Shown here: positions 1,027 to 5,336 of the stretch, one piece after another
Layout of the letters: the number at the start of each line of letters is the position of its first letter
Numbering within the stretch: the stretch's first letter is position 1
Origin: Rickettsiales bacterium TMED211
GTDB taxonomy: Bacteria; Pseudomonadota; Alphaproteobacteria; TMED127
NCBI GenBank assembly: GCA_002169685.1
Contig: NHJI01000066.1
Span: forward strand, 6,027-11,362
DNA: 5,336 bases
Reading direction: 5' to 3'
Translations under genes and position numbers: made by a program
Notes under the pieces: generated by a model
Databases searched by the model: none
What the model was told of the DNA's origin: nothing
What the model saw: only the letters and a program-made list of their open reading frames with translations

Positions 1027-1034
1027 TATTTATA
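1027..1034 (-). promoter_or_regulatory. T4-type late promoter overlapping the gene 3 stop
   Basis: An exact TATAAATA on the minus strand that includes the TAA stop of gene 3. It would give uvsY and the downstream oxygenase gene a late transcript with an untranslated leader of about 105 bases. Confidence 0.7.
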
Positions 1035-1620
1035 AAGTTTTTACTTCGTATATTTTGTACGCAAACTCAGCGCTTACAATTAAATTATCAACATCAGTTG
1101 CAGATTGTGTATAATCTAATGCACCCAATGATATTGGAAAAATATCTTCAAAACTAATCTCTACGATAGGATTATTTTTATTAGACAATATCATAAGGTT
1201 TGCATCAGAATACATTGACTTGTCTGGTGTTGCATTTCCTACATCTCCAATATCTGAACTGGTTGATCTTTGACTTGCAGGCGTAGTTGATGTTACATCT
1301 CTATGTGTTGTAAATTGGCCCCTGTTCTTAGGAAACCCAATCCCTGTTATCCAATTATGTAAAGACAGATAGTTTTCTAGATACTCATCTACAATAAAAG
1401 ATATTGAAAGATTTTCATATTCAAGTTTATCTCCCATTGTAGGTATATTTTTAAATGGTGTATTTAAAATTGCTGGCGTGCCAGATATGCCTGGCACGTT
1501 AGCACTAACAGTAAAAAATTCAACTTTAGGAAGCTGAAGTATACCAAACTTAAACTGAGTTGGACTTGCGTAGTCTAACTTGTCTGGTTGTCTATCTAGT
1601 GGGGATTGAGATGTTGCCAT
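1030..1620 (-). CDS. 3: Tail completion and sheath stabiliser protein gp3 (tail tube terminator)
   Basis: The 196-residue product matches the T4 gp3 family, which forms a hexameric ring capping the finished tail tube and, with gp15, fixes the sheath and the head-tail joint. Family-like features are the N-terminal FKFGILQLP strand, ANVPGI (40-45), and especially LEYENLSISFIVDEYLENYL (66-85), which parallels the FEYDPLIVRFIVDEEL segment I recall from T4 gp3; the C-terminal part has LMILSNKNNPIVEISFEDIF and a final AYKIYEV strand. It is about 20 residues longer than T4 gp3 (176), with a Ser/Thr-rich insertion at about 104-135. The ATG follows the stop of the PqqA-like ORF by two bases (TAACTATG) and has no Shine-Dalgarno sequence of its own, so translation is probably coupled. 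A gp19 tail tube protein is the alternative, since the folds are related. Confidence 0.85.
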   Translation of the reverse strand: MATSQSPLDRQPDKLDYASPTQFKFGILQLPKVEFFTVSANVPGISGTPAILNTPFKNIPTMGDKLEYENLSISFIVDEYLENYLSLHNWITGIGFPKNRGQFTTHRDVTSTTPASQRSTSSDIGDVGNATPDKSMYSDANLMILSNKNNPIVEISFEDIFPISLGALDYTQSATDVDNLIVSAEFAYKIYEVKTL

Positions 1621-1622
1621 AG

Positions 1623-1697
1623 TTAACGATTATGAATATACATTGTTACTTCAAATCCAAATCTAACATCTTGATAAGTTGGTTTTGTCCATTGCAT
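1623..1697 (-). CDS. pqqA: PqqA-like peptide, precursor-type of the cofactor PQQ (24 residues)
   Basis: This tiny ORF encodes 24 residues beginning MQWTKP and containing GFEVTMY near the C-terminus, ending in Asn-Arg. That is the signature of PqqA (typically 22-29 residues), the ribosomally made peptide whose Glu and Tyr are joined by the radical-SAM enzyme PqqE, with PqqD as carrier, to make pyrroloquinoline quinone. The required pair is present as Glu16-Val-Thr-Met-Tyr20 with exact Glu-x-x-x-Tyr spacing. It resembles gammaproteobacterial-type PqqA more than the Methylobacterium form. It has a late promoter and a strong ribosome binding site, and its stop is two bases before the gene 3 start. 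No other pqq gene is visible, so it would depend on host PqqB-E, or may act as a leader peptide for gene 3. The sequence match is strong; the function in a phage is unproven. Confidence 0.85.
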
Positions 1698-1704
1698 AAT
1701 ACCT

Positions 1705-1710
1705 CTCCTT
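1705..1710 (-). promoter_or_regulatory. Ribosome binding site of the PqqA-like ORF
   Basis: AAGGAG on the minus strand, seven bases before the ATG at 1697. It has the same sequence and spacing as the gene 22 site, and it is the only strong Shine-Dalgarno sequence between the late promoter and gene 3, which supports translation of the 24-codon ORF. Confidence 0.85.
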
Positions 1711-1724
1711 ATTAATACTACTAC

Positions 1725-1732
1725 TATTTATA
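1725..1732 (-). promoter_or_regulatory. T4-type late promoter for the PqqA-like ORF and gene 3
   Basis: An exact TATAAATA on the minus strand, 27 bases before the ATG at 1697, leaving a leader of roughly 20 bases that just contains the ribosome binding site. It abuts the preceding terminator, so late transcription restarts where early transcription stops. Confidence 0.8.
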
Positions 1733-1734
1733 AC

Positions 1735-1764
1735 AAAAAAAAGGGGGAACTAATGTTCCCCCTT
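1735..1764 (-). terminator. Intrinsic terminator after the HTH gene
   Basis: On the minus strand the ten-base-pair stem AAGGGGGAAC/GTTCCCCCTT (1741-1750 with 1755-1764) has a four-base loop and a run of eight T (1735-1742). It lies 20 bases after the stop codon and ends the small gene's transcript. The late promoter of the next unit starts two bases beyond the T-run. Confidence 0.93.
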
Positions 1765-1784
1765 CGTACCATATTACAATGGTT

Positions 1785-2042
1785 TTAGACAGCGCGAAGT
1801 GCCTGATAACCAGCCGCAATCACTGACCGTGGCGCAGTACCTAAACGATACTTGTTATAGGTCTGTCCATCAAACGAACTTACTCGCTTGTTGAGGAAAA
1901 TGGGGTATCCCTCAGTGCGTAGTTTGCTCATTACTGCTCGAACATTCTTTACACCATATCGTGATGTAATTTGTTTTGCAGTAAGTTCTGTACCACTCAT
2001 AAGTGCGTTAAGAACCTTCTCAGTTTTAGTAATAGTAGTCAT
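1785..2042 (-). CDS. Small winged-helix/helix-turn-helix-like protein
   Basis: The product is 85 residues from the ATG at 2042. An in-frame ATG seven codons upstream (2063) is rejected because AAGGAG (2053-2058) lies downstream of it and correctly precedes the 2042 start with ten bases. Residues about 5-48 (TKTEKVLNALMSGTELTAKQ, then ITSRYGVKNVRAVMSKLRTE) look like a helix-turn-helix: a helix, a turn at YGVKN and a recognition-type helix RAVMSKLRTEG, followed by a beta-like wing YPIFLNKRVSSFDGQTYNKY. The C-terminus RLGTAPRSVIAAGYQALRAV is distinctive and matches, from memory, small hypothetical proteins of cyanophages and pelagiphages. It is basic and probably binds DNA. It has its own promoter, leader hairpin and terminator between two late units. 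A role as an early or middle transcription regulator is inference; no characterised homologue is known to me. Confidence 0.8.
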   Translation of the reverse strand: MTTITKTEKVLNALMSGTELTAKQITSRYGVKNVRAVMSKLRTEGYPIFLNKRVSSFDGQTYNKYRLGTAPRSVIAAGYQALRAV

Positions 2043-2071
2043 TATATAATTTCTCCTTGTCATGACATTAA

Positions 2072-2100: not shown

Positions 2101-2130
2101 ACTATAACACGTTATATGATATAATGTCAA
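2101..2130 (-). promoter_or_regulatory. Sigma70-like promoter for the small HTH gene
   Basis: On the minus strand a perfect -35 box TTGACA (2125-2130) is followed after 18 bases by TATAGT (2101-2106), five of six matches to TATAAT; the register TTATAG gives a 17-base spacer. Predicted transcription start is near 2094. It is the only clear host-type promoter in the window and lies just after the gene 23 terminator, so the small gene downstream has its own, probably early, transcript. Confidence 0.75.
2103..2116. repeat. Inverted repeat in the promoter spacer, possible operator
   Basis: TATAAC and GTTATA are exact inverted repeats separated by two bases (AC on the plus strand). They overlap the -10 box and the adjacent spacer of the promoter of the HTH-like gene. 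The location would suit repressor binding, possibly by the gene's own product, but AT-rich dyads arise easily by chance. Confidence 0.35.
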
Positions 2131-2215: not shown

Positions 2216-3565
2216 TTACATAAGGTTTGTGACTTTAACCCTTCGATACCAAGCATTAGTGTTTGCATCAAGAGAAGCATCAGTGTTAACTGTGTCTCCA
2301 GCTGCAACCGCACCAGCGGCAGCGAATGGATTAGCTGCAAGACCATAACGTGTCTTGAAACCAATCTTAGGTTGGAAAGAACTTTCACCAACCGCACGAA
2401 CCATCTGTAGTGGAACGTATGGGCAGTAGAAAAATCCAGCGTCATAAGGGGAAGTACCCTTGTAACCAACAACATAGTACTGCGATGCAGCTACGTTAGC
2501 AGCATATGGATCAACATATACTTTGTAACGTCCGTTCATAACACCAGCGAATGTGGTAGTTGTGTCGTCTACGTTTAAGTTGTTTGATAGAGCAGGAGTG
2601 TAATCAAGTACACCTGCCATCTGAAGTGCAGAAGCAACATCAGCTGAACAGATAATCATGTTACCTTTCCCTCTACGAGTCTGTTGACCAATCGCATTGG
2701 CATCACGTTCGATTGCGAACATTAAACCTTTGAATTTCTCAACTGACCAACGACCGTTTGAATCTGTATCAAGGTCGAATATACCAGCAGTAGTTGTGTT
2801 AACTTGAGCACCCTTAACCGCAGTTACATACAATGAGCGAATTACTTCACGATTGATTTCTGCGAGGATTTCAGAACTTAGGATATTAGAAAGTTCTGTC
2901 TCTGCGTCAAGACCATGAATTGCTTTAAGGTCTTGTGCGAGTTCCATTGTGTACTCAGCTTTTAGCGCACGACTAACAGCAGTCACAGTTGACTTCTCGA
3001 TTGAAAATGCCATCTGAGCAAATCCGTTGTCAGAACTGTCACCTAATGCTTCTGCCTGAGCAGTAGTCATACCTGTTGCAGAAACGTATGTTCCAGCAGA
3101 AGGACTGTCGTTAAGGACAGCAGGGTTAGTTTCTGTTGATCCAACATCACCACCACCGATATCACCGGCAGAGTTCTGGTTAGATGCACCAGTTTGGCCA
3201 GGCATTGCCTCGTCAACAAGTGCTTCTGCACCATCTTGTGAAAGGAAAGATGAACGCATTGCAAAGATAAGACCAGTAGGCCCTGTCATTGGTTGTACAC
3301 CACATACGTCATATGCAATCAAGTTAGGCATTGCACGCCGTACTAGTGATATTAAAATTGGATCCCATGTATCGAATTGTCCACCACCAGTACTGTTGAC
3401 TGGCGCTGTTTCTCCGAGGAAACCTCTATCTTCTTTTAAAGCTTTTTCTTGGTTCTCTAAGATGAGAGTAGTAACTGCCCGCTTATAAGGATCGGCGATC
3501 TCAGGAAGATCGGGATGCTCTAGGACTGGCTGCCACTTTTCTTGTAGATGTTCTGTCTGAAACAT
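2216..3565 (-). CDS. 23: Major capsid protein gp23
   Basis: The 449-residue product has the HK97 fold known for this family and forms the hexamers of the head shell. The N-terminal segment HLQEKWQPVLEHPDLPEIAD and the segment FDTWDPILISLVRRAMPNLI (64-83), followed by YDVCGVQPMTGPTGLIFAMR, are hallmark T4-like gp23 sequences; AEYTMELAQDLKAIHGLDAE in the middle and YGTSPYDAGFFYCPYVP-type sequence near the C-terminus (here YKGTSPYDAGFFYCPYVPLQ) also fit. A gp21 cleavage site of the L/I-x-E type is visible as FLGE/TAPVN, cutting after Glu52, which would leave a mature protein of about 397 residues. The length is shorter than T4 gp23 (521) and in the range I associate with marine relatives, which lack the T4 insertion domain. 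A strong terminator follows the stop by about 40 bases. Confidence 0.97.
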   Translation of the reverse strand: MFQTEHLQEKWQPVLEHPDLPEIADPYKRAVTTLILENQEKALKEDRGFLGETAPVNSTGGGQFDTWDPILISLVRRAMPNLIAYDVCGVQPMTGPTGLIFAMRSSFLSQDGAEALVDEAMPGQTGASNQNSAGDIGGGDVGSTETNPAVLNDSPSAGTYVSATGMTTAQAEALGDSSDNGFAQMAFSIEKSTVTAVSRALKAEYTMELAQDLKAIHGLDAETELSNILSSEILAEINREVIRSLYVTAVKGAQVNTTTAGIFDLDTDSNGRWSVEKFKGLMFAIERDANAIGQQTRRGKGNMIICSADVASALQMAGVLDYTPALSNNLNVDDTTTTFAGVMNGRYKVYVDPYAANVAASQYYVVGYKGTSPYDAGFFYCPYVPLQMVRAVGESSFQPKIGFKTRYGLAANPFAAAGAVAAGDTVNTDASLDANTNAWYRRVKVTNLM

Positions 3566-3605: not shown

Positions 3606-4838
3606 TTACGCACTTGCCTTTTGATTACGACTGATTGCCGACAAATAAGCGTTCATCGCATCTGTCGTATCAATGTCCTTAGCAGTGCTACCATCTTCAT
3701 CATCAAAAGTCTGTTCGACTACAGTATTTTTAGGAAAGTAACTTTCCTTCAAAGTATTCAGTTTTTCTCGAAATGATTCCTCATCTGCAAAATCAACGTC
3801 TTCTGTAAGTCCTTTGAACTTCTCAATTTCTGTGTCGGCTAAATCTTCGGAAACCTCAGATATAACCTGTTCACGAACTAGTTTAGAGTTTGAATTAACC
3901 AACTCAACTGATTTCTCAATTGACTCGTTTAACTTATCTTCTAATTCGGAAATTCTTTCAGATTGTGCTTCGAGAACGTCATACTTCTCGTTAGGCACAT
4001 CAATATAGTGATCTTCAAACAACTGTTTCAGTCCAGAGATAAAGTCTTCTGCAATTTCGCCCTTTAAACCGCGCTCTATTGCTAACTCGTTCTCTTTAGT
4101 CCATTCCTCTACAACGTAGTTGAGATAAGTATCAACTTTCTCTGTAAGTTCTTCTTTGAAAGTCTCTATTTCAGTTTCTTTCTCAGAACCAACTTCTTCA
4201 TGAATACGTTCAATTTCTGAACGTACTTTAGATTTAACTGCAGCTTCAAATATTGTAGCTGCCTTAACCTTGAAGTCTTCAGAAAGACTGTCATCAGCGT
4301 TCATCAAAGCTTGTACATCTTCTTTTACGTTGATGTCTTTGATTCGTGCTTCAACTGCTTCTGCTTTTTCTAATTCTTCTTCAGTAGGTTCTGCCTTTTC
4401 TGCTTGCATCGCGGCCATGATGTTTTCATACTGAGATTTTAAATCTCCAGCCTTCATCATTTCCATCTTGTTAACCATTGCTTTTAGCATTTCTTTCTTA
4501 GTCTTAGGCATTTCCATTTCTGAAATAACCTCTTCACCTTCTGGTTCGTGACTAGCTGCTAGTTTTTCTGGTTTGTCTGCCTTGCCTGCACCTTTTTGTT
4601 GTGCATCACCTTTAACTTCTTTTGCTTTCTTAGATGCAACGTCTGTTGGAGAAGATTTAGCTTCGGGGTCAACTACTGCCGCCCCTCCGTCTTCTACTTC
4701 ACCGCCAGGTGTGACTGCATCAATTTTTTCAGCTTTCGCGGAAGGAGCAGCACCGTCAGTAGGCTGTTTAGATGCCTCTTCTAGTTCTGCAAGTACTTCG
4801 ACTTCCAGCTCTTCAATTGTTTTATCTAATTCGGACAT
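3606..4838 (-). CDS. 22: Prohead core scaffolding protein gp22
   Basis: The 410-residue product is the main internal scaffold on which the gp23 shell assembles; gp21 later degrades it. It is very rich in Glu, Lys and Ala, with long predicted coiled-coil or helical stretches (about residues 145-235 and 285-370). Recognisable family segments are VDTYLNYVVEEWTKENELAI (235-254) with the following GEIAEDFISGLKQLFEDHYIDVP, and the C-terminal DAMNAYLSAISR (393-404). Residues about 22-105 are low-complexity Ala/Pro/Lys/Glu/Gly sequence, probably disordered. The segment MPKTKKEMLKAMVNKMEMMK (110-129) follows it. Several L/I-x-E triplets, the gp21 cleavage consensus, occur (for example ISE at 105-107). 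It is considerably longer than T4 gp22 (about 270 residues), mainly through the N-terminal part; marine T4-like relatives are, from memory, also long. The start is fixed by AAGGAG seven bases upstream. Confidence 0.92.
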   Translation of the reverse strand: MSELDKTIEELEVEVLAELEEASKQPTDGAAPSAKAEKIDAVTPGGEVEDGGAAVVDPEAKSSPTDVASKKAKEVKGDAQQKGAGKADKPEKLAASHEPEGEEVISEMEMPKTKKEMLKAMVNKMEMMKAGDLKSQYENIMAAMQAEKAEPTEEELEKAEAVEARIKDINVKEDVQALMNADDSLSEDFKVKAATIFEAAVKSKVRSEIERIHEEVGSEKETEIETFKEELTEKVDTYLNYVVEEWTKENELAIERGLKGEIAEDFISGLKQLFEDHYIDVPNEKYDVLEAQSERISELEDKLNESIEKSVELVNSNSKLVREQVISEVSEDLADTEIEKFKGLTEDVDFADEESFREKLNTLKESYFPKNTVVEQTFDDEDGSTAKDIDTTDAMNAYLSAISRNQKASA

Positions 4839-4877: not shown

Positions 4878-5336
4878 TTATAAACTTTTGAGGAACTTTG
4901 CGAATTCCAAAGCTTCCTGTGCGTGGTTTCTCTTTTCTTCAACCACATCAAATTGTTGTTTCAAGTCCTCTAACTCCGCTTCTAAAAGTGCGCCATGTTT
5001 CCAAACCCACTCTTTACCTTCCATAATACCTTCTACGAAAGCATTTGGTGCGGAAGGATCAGCAACAATATCTGCGGCTGTTGCAAGATAAAAATCGTCA
5101 CGAACATAGTTCGCACCATTTTTTTGATTTAAACTACCCATTCCTCTAGAGGAAACACCTAGTTTTGCACCTTCATCCATAAGACTTTTAACAATCTCAC
5201 CCATAGGAGTTGACATTATTTTTGCCTCACCGATAAAATTTTTACCATCTGGTGTCAAAGAAGTAATCATATGTGATACACGTTCTAGATTGACCGTTGG
5301 GCCATCAGGGTGTCCTAGTTCACCATATGCACGATT
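4878..5336 (-). CDS. 21: Prohead core protease gp21, C-terminal part (5' end outside window)
   Basis: The frame is open to the right edge and encodes the last 152 residues; an ATG at 5270 is internal, because the 22 codons upstream of it encode conserved protease sequence. T4 gp21 is a serine protease (herpesvirus-assemblin-like, MEROPS S80) that digests the scaffold core and trims gp23 during head maturation. Both motifs with known catalytic residues in T4 are visible: GELGHP, whose His (visible residue 9, codon 5310-5312) corresponds to T4 His85, and GVSSRG, whose first Ser (residue 62, codon 5151-5153) corresponds to T4 Ser140. The DDFYLATAADIVADPSAPNAFV segment is the region after the Ser motif. 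The C-terminal 50 residues are charged and probably helical. By comparison with T4, about 75 N-terminal residues lie outside the window. It is followed at once by late promoters and gene 22, the usual T4-like order. Family identity is close to certain. Confidence 0.95.
   Translation of the reverse strand, partial: NRAYGELGHPDGPTVNLERVSHMITSLTPDGKNFIGEAKIMSTPMGEIVKSLMDEGAKLGVSSRGMGSLNQKNGANYVRDDFYLATAADIVADPSAPNAFVEGIMEGKEWVWKHGALLEAELEDLKQQFDVVEEKRNHAQEALEFAKFLKSL

Follow-up and report, generated by a model that had tools for sequence, protein, structure and literature searches.

The pqqA gene and its neighbours

The window, by which we mean the whole stretch of 5,336 nucleotides analysed here, carries its genes in a T4-like order: protease, scaffold, Gp23, a small winged-helix/HTH-like gene, pqqA, a tail-tube-like gene, UvsY, and a 2OG-Fe(II) oxygenase. 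The structural genes lie on the minus strand and comprise the prohead protease Gp21 (4878..5336, truncated by the window end; PF03420, 66 bits), the capsid scaffold Gp22 (3606..4838; PF25623, 231 bits), the major capsid protein Gp23 (2216..3565; Pfam PF07068, 483 bits), and the tail-tube-like protein (1030..1620; PHROG 45 tail tube, E 9.5e-29), which forms a second cistron whose ATG begins two bases past the pqqA stop. At the DNA level, the isolate with the widest coverage was Methylophilales phage Melnitz (69% identity over 47% of the window), and the Pelagibacter phages HTVC008M and Mosig matched at 71–72% over one third.

The pqqA ORF comprises 24 codons and a stop (1623..1697, minus strand, read from 1697 down to 1623). 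Ahead of it on the same strand are the Shine-Dalgarno sequence AAGGAG (1705..1710), seven bases from the ATG, the T4-type late promoter TATAAATA (1725..1732), recognised by its motif count against shuffles and by comparison with relatives, and a terminator-like hairpin with a T-run (1740..1765), which closes the unit preceding pqqA. The window has four TATAAATA sites, each of them on the minus strand, whereas shuffled sequence has a mean of 0.38 (0 of 200 shuffles reached four). The first-pass annotation had read a 24-codon ORF with an exact AAGGAG site and a late promoter from the letters alone, and both the coordinates and the shuffle test bear this out. With a late promoter and a Shine-Dalgarno sequence in place, the gene is presumably translated.

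The predicted peptide scored about twice the cut-offs of both curated models, Pfam PF08042 (E 6.1e-11, 42.5 bits, cut-off 21.1) and the NCBIfam equivalog TIGR02107 (E 1.5e-11, 43.8 bits, cut-off 20), so that the PqqA identity proposed earlier holds under the HMM search named for checking it. Glu16 and Tyr20, the pair four residues apart that becomes PQQ, are located where they had been placed, and a degenerate PqqA peptide pattern matched the window once and none of 200 shuffles. The peptide resembles bacterial PqqA in length, W..P start, GxExxxY core, and above-cut-off score. It differs in being phage-borne, in standing, within the window's clade, under a T4-type late promoter ahead of a tail gene, and in the absence of pqqB–E from the window. 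No PHROGs family matched the peptide, and Rfam had no match anywhere in the window. A host-type metabolic gene thus lies on a virus contig amid virus genes, which marks an auxiliary metabolic gene, and we conclude that the ORF is a genuine pqqA and an auxiliary metabolic gene of a T4-like phage.

The position "between genes 23 and 3" given in the first-pass annotation was only partly right. The gene does follow gene 23, but the HTH-like gene (1785..2063, minus strand; PHROG 4973, E 1.7e-14; HTH_39 below cut-off) and the terminator intervene, and the next gene matches a PHROG named tail tube. The HTH-like gene has a likely start at 2042 with its own AAGGAG ahead, and a sigma-70-like promoter, TTGACA-18-TATAGT (2101..2130, minus strand), is a match to consensus only; judging from that promoter sequence, it may be an early gene inside the late region. 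We also observed that the interval between gp23 and the tube gene accommodates various small genes (window 1785–2063; contigs L283, L289, and L290).

Relatives of the window and the spread of pqqA among phages

Comparison with close relatives suggests how pqqA came under late control. Contigs L284, L285, L293, and L294 (Gp23 identity 90%–93%) and L292 (88%) have an empty site without pqqA: a terminator-like hairpin comes after the Gp23 stop, then TATAAATA, and the tube gene starts at an ATG a few bases further along. In the window, by comparison, the HTH-like gene precedes the terminator, and the gap between TATAAATA and the tube ATG is filled by pqqA together with a separate AAGGAG of its own. 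Since the empty-site relatives have the promoter directly before the tube gene, pqqA took over an existing late promoter. Two complete scans of IMG/VR gave 21 contigs (12 and 9) with TATAAATA shortly 5′ of pqqA, and 15 of these belong to the window's clade, with pqqA in the same slot and order. The survey of this slot proposed earlier thus found the ORF at the same site in 15 further contigs, whose peptides are alike except that position 22 is H, M, or N and that the second residue, Q, is present in some and absent in others. In a more distant relative (L301, the same contig as L119), pqqA occupies the same interval in a different arrangement with its own terminator.

Among close gp23 relatives with at least 1200 nt downstream, pqqA was at the site in 1 of 50 (from the best 80 of at least 600 matches). 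A near-absence of pqqA from the window's clade, which this count had seemed to indicate, was dropped, as 15 clade contigs carry the gene. Late-promoter control is not general, with TATAAATA within 80 nt 5′ of pqqA in only 3 of 144 listed IMG/VR loci. Taken together, the curated models, the promoter, and the 15 further contigs support the earlier claim of a PqqA precursor gene within a late structural unit, and we regard the PqqA identity and the late-promoter capture as practically certain.

Both the core residues and the ORF are conserved. A search that did not fix the Glu and Tyr codons gave at least 120 stretches (80 listed) and no new locus, and both residues were present in all loci; they are likewise kept in all 21 contigs with TATAAATA ahead of pqqA. 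One Arg and one Phe that were free to vary in the pattern were invariant. At pattern-free codons, pN/pS was 0.27 (109 unique of 119 usable sequences, from 120 listed), and within the window's clade it was 0.14 for pqqA (16 sequences, 5 unique) compared with 0.16 for the tube gene. The Glu-x-x-x-Tyr core and the ORF, on whose conservation the first-pass annotation had staked its reading, are therefore retained in relatives wherever the pattern left residues open, and both pN/pS values indicate selection at the protein level.

Phage isolates carry pqqA in several lineages. A tblastn search of 50,697 phage records with two PqqA types returned the identical 12 records from both. Nine are Methylophilales or Methylophilaceae phages (four Melnitz records, Venkman, MEP301, MEP401, MEP402, and P19250A), a count that is partly circular, as most of these records were found through pqqA itself, and they represent six phages of several lineages. 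Methylophilales phages outside this count, by NCBI taxonomy, are HIMB624-A, MEP431–434, and Venkman EXVC038S, and no additional Methylophilales record came up when parts of Venkman, MEP402, and MEP301 were used as DNA queries. The spring phage ctXG6705 was also among the 12. We set aside as phage evidence two matches to 'Acinetobacter phage MD-2021a': in one (CAKLQF020000010.1, L005), filed as 'Acinetobacter phage', the pqqA match is followed by pqqB, pqqC, pqqD, and a radical SAM gene, and the record reads as bacterial chromosome; the other was left out along with it. The same search matched 42 plasmid records, 35 of them over at least 80% of the query and some with annotated pqqA, so it was able to detect PqqA of non-methylotrophs.

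The location of pqqA differs between isolate phages. Melnitz was rejected as a same-position case because its pqqA adjoins tRNA-Leu and gene 5 rather than following gene 23. Pairwise comparison among six phages found 0–8 shared ORFs, with the exception of Venkman and ctXG6705 (23–24), and six other phage PqqA types scored 37–43 bits against the cut-off of 21.1. That genes this short escape automatic annotation, as had been suspected, was evident in each of the seven records inspected (Melnitz EXVC044M, Venkman, ctXG6705, MEP402, MEP401, MEP301, and P19250A): none had an annotated pqqA CDS, and in two an antisense ORF was annotated instead.

In IMG/VR, a pattern combining W..P with GxEVTxY and a narrower second pattern gave at least 144 distinct loci (L012–L155), and every one of the 144 listed is a free-standing PqqA ORF of 23–25 aa. 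Searched by blastp against reference phages, 139 of the 144 listed contigs had at least one match and five had none; assigned by most matches, the listed contigs were ctXG6705-like (44), T4-like (32), Venkman-like (29), P19250A-like (12), MEP402-like (11), and MEP301-like (11). Five listed contigs also had a best match within the fetched host loci (L156–L273, from a genome scan with at least 118 matches). The peptide of 54 of the 144 listed phage contigs was letter-identical to a fetched host PqqA, in every case of the Methylophilaceae type. As a separate observation, Hsp20-like genes at L099:1445–1987 and L084:4506–5055 lie directly 3′ of Rfam ROSE_3 RNA thermometers (Pfam HSP20 confirmed for L099).

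Hosts and host-type upstream elements of pqqA

Copy numbers in methylotroph hosts set the precursor gene apart from the rest of the pathway. We found pqqA in 120 of 120 Methylophilaceae genomes, with 1–12 copies (median 4) and at least two copies in 117, compared with pqqE above cut-off in 112 of 120 genomes and a second such copy in three; we note that the pqqA count used genomes at least 90% complete, while the pqqE and Burkholderiaceae sets had no completeness filter, so that the two Methylophilaceae sets of 120 overlap but differ. Among Burkholderiaceae, a draw with many very small genomes, pqqA was present in 51 of 120, with a median of one copy among those and a maximum of three. Excerpts of earlier work give a similar picture, with 3–12 pqqA against one pqqBCDEFG set in nine genomes, apart from an extra pqqDE in one (PMC4109929), and a strain with five pqqA copies (PMC9851590). 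A median of four pqqA against almost always one pqqE in Methylophilaceae makes extra precursor a plausible benefit. The concern that hosts might all lack pqq genes is refuted, on the counts of pqqA and pqqE, for Methylophilaceae, the hosts of cultured relatives.

The window's own host may be different. Its PqqA matches methanotroph, Cycloclasticus, and Methylophaga peptides at 18 of 24 residues, Methylophagaceae at best at 78% over residues 2–24 (match in 47 of 57 genomes), and Methylophilaceae PqqA at up to 70% identity. Five of the 15 clade contigs (L402, L404, L405, L406, and L409) encode a 270-aa AmoC (in L402, at 3826–4635) roughly 96 nt 5′ of pqqA, and a TATAAATA promoter of its own precedes this gene. 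This protein scored 393 bits with the bacterial AmoC model (cut-off 319) and 427 bits with TIGR03078 (cut-off 281). Against solved proteins, it gave 511–535 bits with ammonia monooxygenases and at most 242 with methane or mixed-name enzymes; among named proteins it is 85% identical to one from a Nitrosospira MAG, and its best match overall reaches 91%. An identification as PmoC, made by eye, was ruled out because the models give AmoC. With amoC beside pqqA in five clade contigs, the gene content points to an ammonia oxidiser as a possible host of the window's phage. Sister T4-like contigs (L425–L430 and L437) have amoC without pqqA in the 1.3–4 kb visible downstream, and across L425–L438 we observed amoC without pqqA within the available stretch.

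Other phages share upstream elements of pqqA with their hosts. A TAATGATTTTCATTAG-like site (at least 12 of 16 matching, within 200 nt 5′ of pqqA) was present in 43 of 51 Methylophilaceae-type hosts (2.9 in shuffles), 20 of 30 T4-like phages (3.1), 51 of 102 other phages (9.7), 18 of 74 other hosts (3.3), and one of four unassigned sequences; since the host and T4-like sequences were those from which the motif was picked by eye, an independent test comes from the 'other phage' group alone. These counts leave out duplicates and sequences with less than 120 nt upstream, and the control was an approximate dinucleotide-block shuffle of 10 rounds. The motif is inverted-repeat-like, and TATAAT follows it in several hosts (among L156–L273) and phages (among L012–L155). 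It is possibly an activator site common to hosts and phages. No TAATGATTTTCATTAG-like site was found within 200 nt 5′ of pqqA in the window.

Between promoter and ATG, 13 phage loci and five small-genome Methylophilaceae loci share a leader; 12 of the 13 phage loci are T4-like, and the remaining one, L079, matched P19250A in one ORF. The predicted fold is a three-way junction in several loci. RNAalifold on 18 leaders found helix P1 unaided, with two-sided changes in four of six pairs. We counted 23 two-sided cells in P1 compared with 5.9 in shuffles (0 of 500 reached 23) and at most 2 when the helix was slid; in 37 model-fitted sequences there were 38 against 9.9, while counts of pairs and pair types in P1 showed no excess over shuffles. 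Helix P1 thus shows the compensatory changes of a conserved structure. Hairpins P2 and P3 were predicted in 23 of 23 host sequences, and of 14 phage sequences six were without P3 and six without P2. A predicted pairing of UCUC with the Shine-Dalgarno sequence lies in columns that hardly vary and hence carry no covariation; in this model the leader is predicted to hide the ribosome site.

The leader model matched 23 of 187 Methylophilaceae genomes, all of 0.7–1.4 Mb (some small genomes had no match), and 23 of its 24 matches stop at the base before the PqqA start codon, the 24th being weak. In phages, it added L102 (E 2.6e-5) and weak matches in L083 and L154. Loci with the leader include L376–L398, L046, L084, L099, L133, and L155. 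The window gave no match, and neither did the fetched isolate genomes or 369 genomes of the class, a draw that contained no positive control; Rfam searches at gathering level (ten loci) and with permissive settings (one leader) did not match the leader either. We consider it very probable that the pqqA leader of these relatives is a real cis-regulatory RNA; that it is a metabolite riboswitch is quite conceivable, though short of probable. A still more tentative and on balance doubtful scenario is that the leader of small-genome methylotrophs is a PQQ-pathway riboswitch without an Rfam family, that T4-like phages captured pqqA together with the switch and the host-type site, and that the window's clade, which lacks both, keeps the gene under a late promoter of its own, in part of the clade next to amoC, which would free energy-related host supplies from host feedback late in infection.

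Probable supply of a PQQ precursor during infection

Each PQQ costs one PqqA, so that with a single gene of 24 codons the phage would raise the one component that is spent. In the mechanism we propose, the phage would make this precursor late in infection, as the first cistron before the tail-tube gene; host PqqD, PqqE, PqqB, and PqqC would convert it to PQQ; and PQQ would keep quinoprotein dehydrogenases active during virion building, such as the methanol dehydrogenase of the methylotrophs that related phages infect. Hosts would follow the same route with several pqqA and one pqqE. Supply of a PQQ precursor is probably the function of phage PqqA, and from it we infer processing by host PqqB–E, more PQQ, and a benefit to the phage. 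As pqqA is common to T4-like and unrelated methylotroph phages, phages probably top up a scarce host cofactor.

One T4-like contig of 72 kb (L375) combines pqqA and the leader RNA with a PQQ enzyme: a 624-aa PQQ-dependent methanol dehydrogenase (L375:8990–10864, above the TIGR03075 cut-off) on the same strand, about 6 kb 5′ of pqqA. Four Melnitz-like and two host-like proteins lie near this pqqA. The contig was the only one with a PQQ-enzyme domain among 50 records (44 of the listed IMG/VR contigs and six phages), and a second set of 20 records held no PQQ dehydrogenase domain.

The PQQ could instead serve another end, protecting against oxidative stress or being exported to close a PQQ-importing receptor to rival phages. 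A coliphage that uses the PqqU importer is blocked by PQQ, according to the part of PMC12124388 available, but this reading leaves unexplained why the isolate matches are methylophages and one spring phage, and we consider it improbable. A second substrate could also compete, so that the phage peptide would act as a decoy, occupying host PqqD and PqqE, lowering PQQ, and shutting down host respiration to the phage's advantage. This version of the competitor role raised in the first-pass annotation is disfavoured and, in our judgement, very unlikely: the core residues including Glu and Tyr are retained, the listed contigs include the 54 with a host-identical peptide, and two T4-like phages combine pqqA with methanol dehydrogenase. 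It is just as hard to sustain a new phage role, as a virion or regulatory peptide that only resembles PqqA; the peptide gene is tied to the tail-tube gene in the window's clade, but other lineages place it elsewhere and their sequences still score as PqqA. Least credible is neutral cargo, host DNA acquired by chance in a variable slot, for while inserts between gp23 and the tube gene are varied and most close gp23 relatives lack pqqA, the purifying selection seen in the present pN/pS values, the 15 further contigs at one site, and the several lineages speak against it.

The preferred reading, precursor supply, has a counterpart in the psbA of cyanophages, which resupplies a used-up host component during infection; here the component is a cofactor precursor peptide, not a protein subunit. 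The pmoC-phages of methanotrophs are alike in carrying a gene for one copper monooxygenase subunit, said in the portions of PMC7674155 available to appear most active late in infection. They are large freshwater phages, and 'pqq' does not occur in the text, whereas here an ammonia-oxidiser-type amoC lies near pqqA on five T4-like contigs. Phage PqqA itself is already known and was found in two papers. The accessible text of PMC7678222 describes the Lake Baikal viral populations VP_139/VP_266, a T4-like phage of Methylophilaceae with PqqA and methanol dehydrogenase, for which its authors propose enhanced methanol oxidation, and the accessible part of PMC13188868 has phage PqqA in a gene list. 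Compared with the Lake Baikal study, which names the VP_266 representative in that text, we describe several lineages, a defined late slot, upstream elements, and host copy numbers. The main texts of the MEP401/402, MEP301, and Venkman papers do not contain 'pqq', and the Melnitz paper has it as a medium component only. In the literature on phage or viral pqqA and PQQ, pqqA copies, and PQQ riboswitches, we did not find the late-promoter capture, the breadth of phage pqqA, or the host-type upstream site and covarying leader common to hosts and T4-like phages.

If the proposed function is true, phages of methylotrophs have repeatedly acquired the smallest handle on central energy metabolism, a used-up cofactor precursor, through a gene of 23–25 codons that is easily overlooked. 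Whether infected methylotrophs are limited by their PQQ supply becomes a testable question. Phage pqqA would then serve as a marker for methylotroph phages and connect infection with the turnover of methanol. As for the leader RNA, it is a candidate new class of regulator in PQQ synthesis, and the amoC–pqqA pair in T4-like phages raises the question of whether some ammonia oxidisers depend on PQQ.
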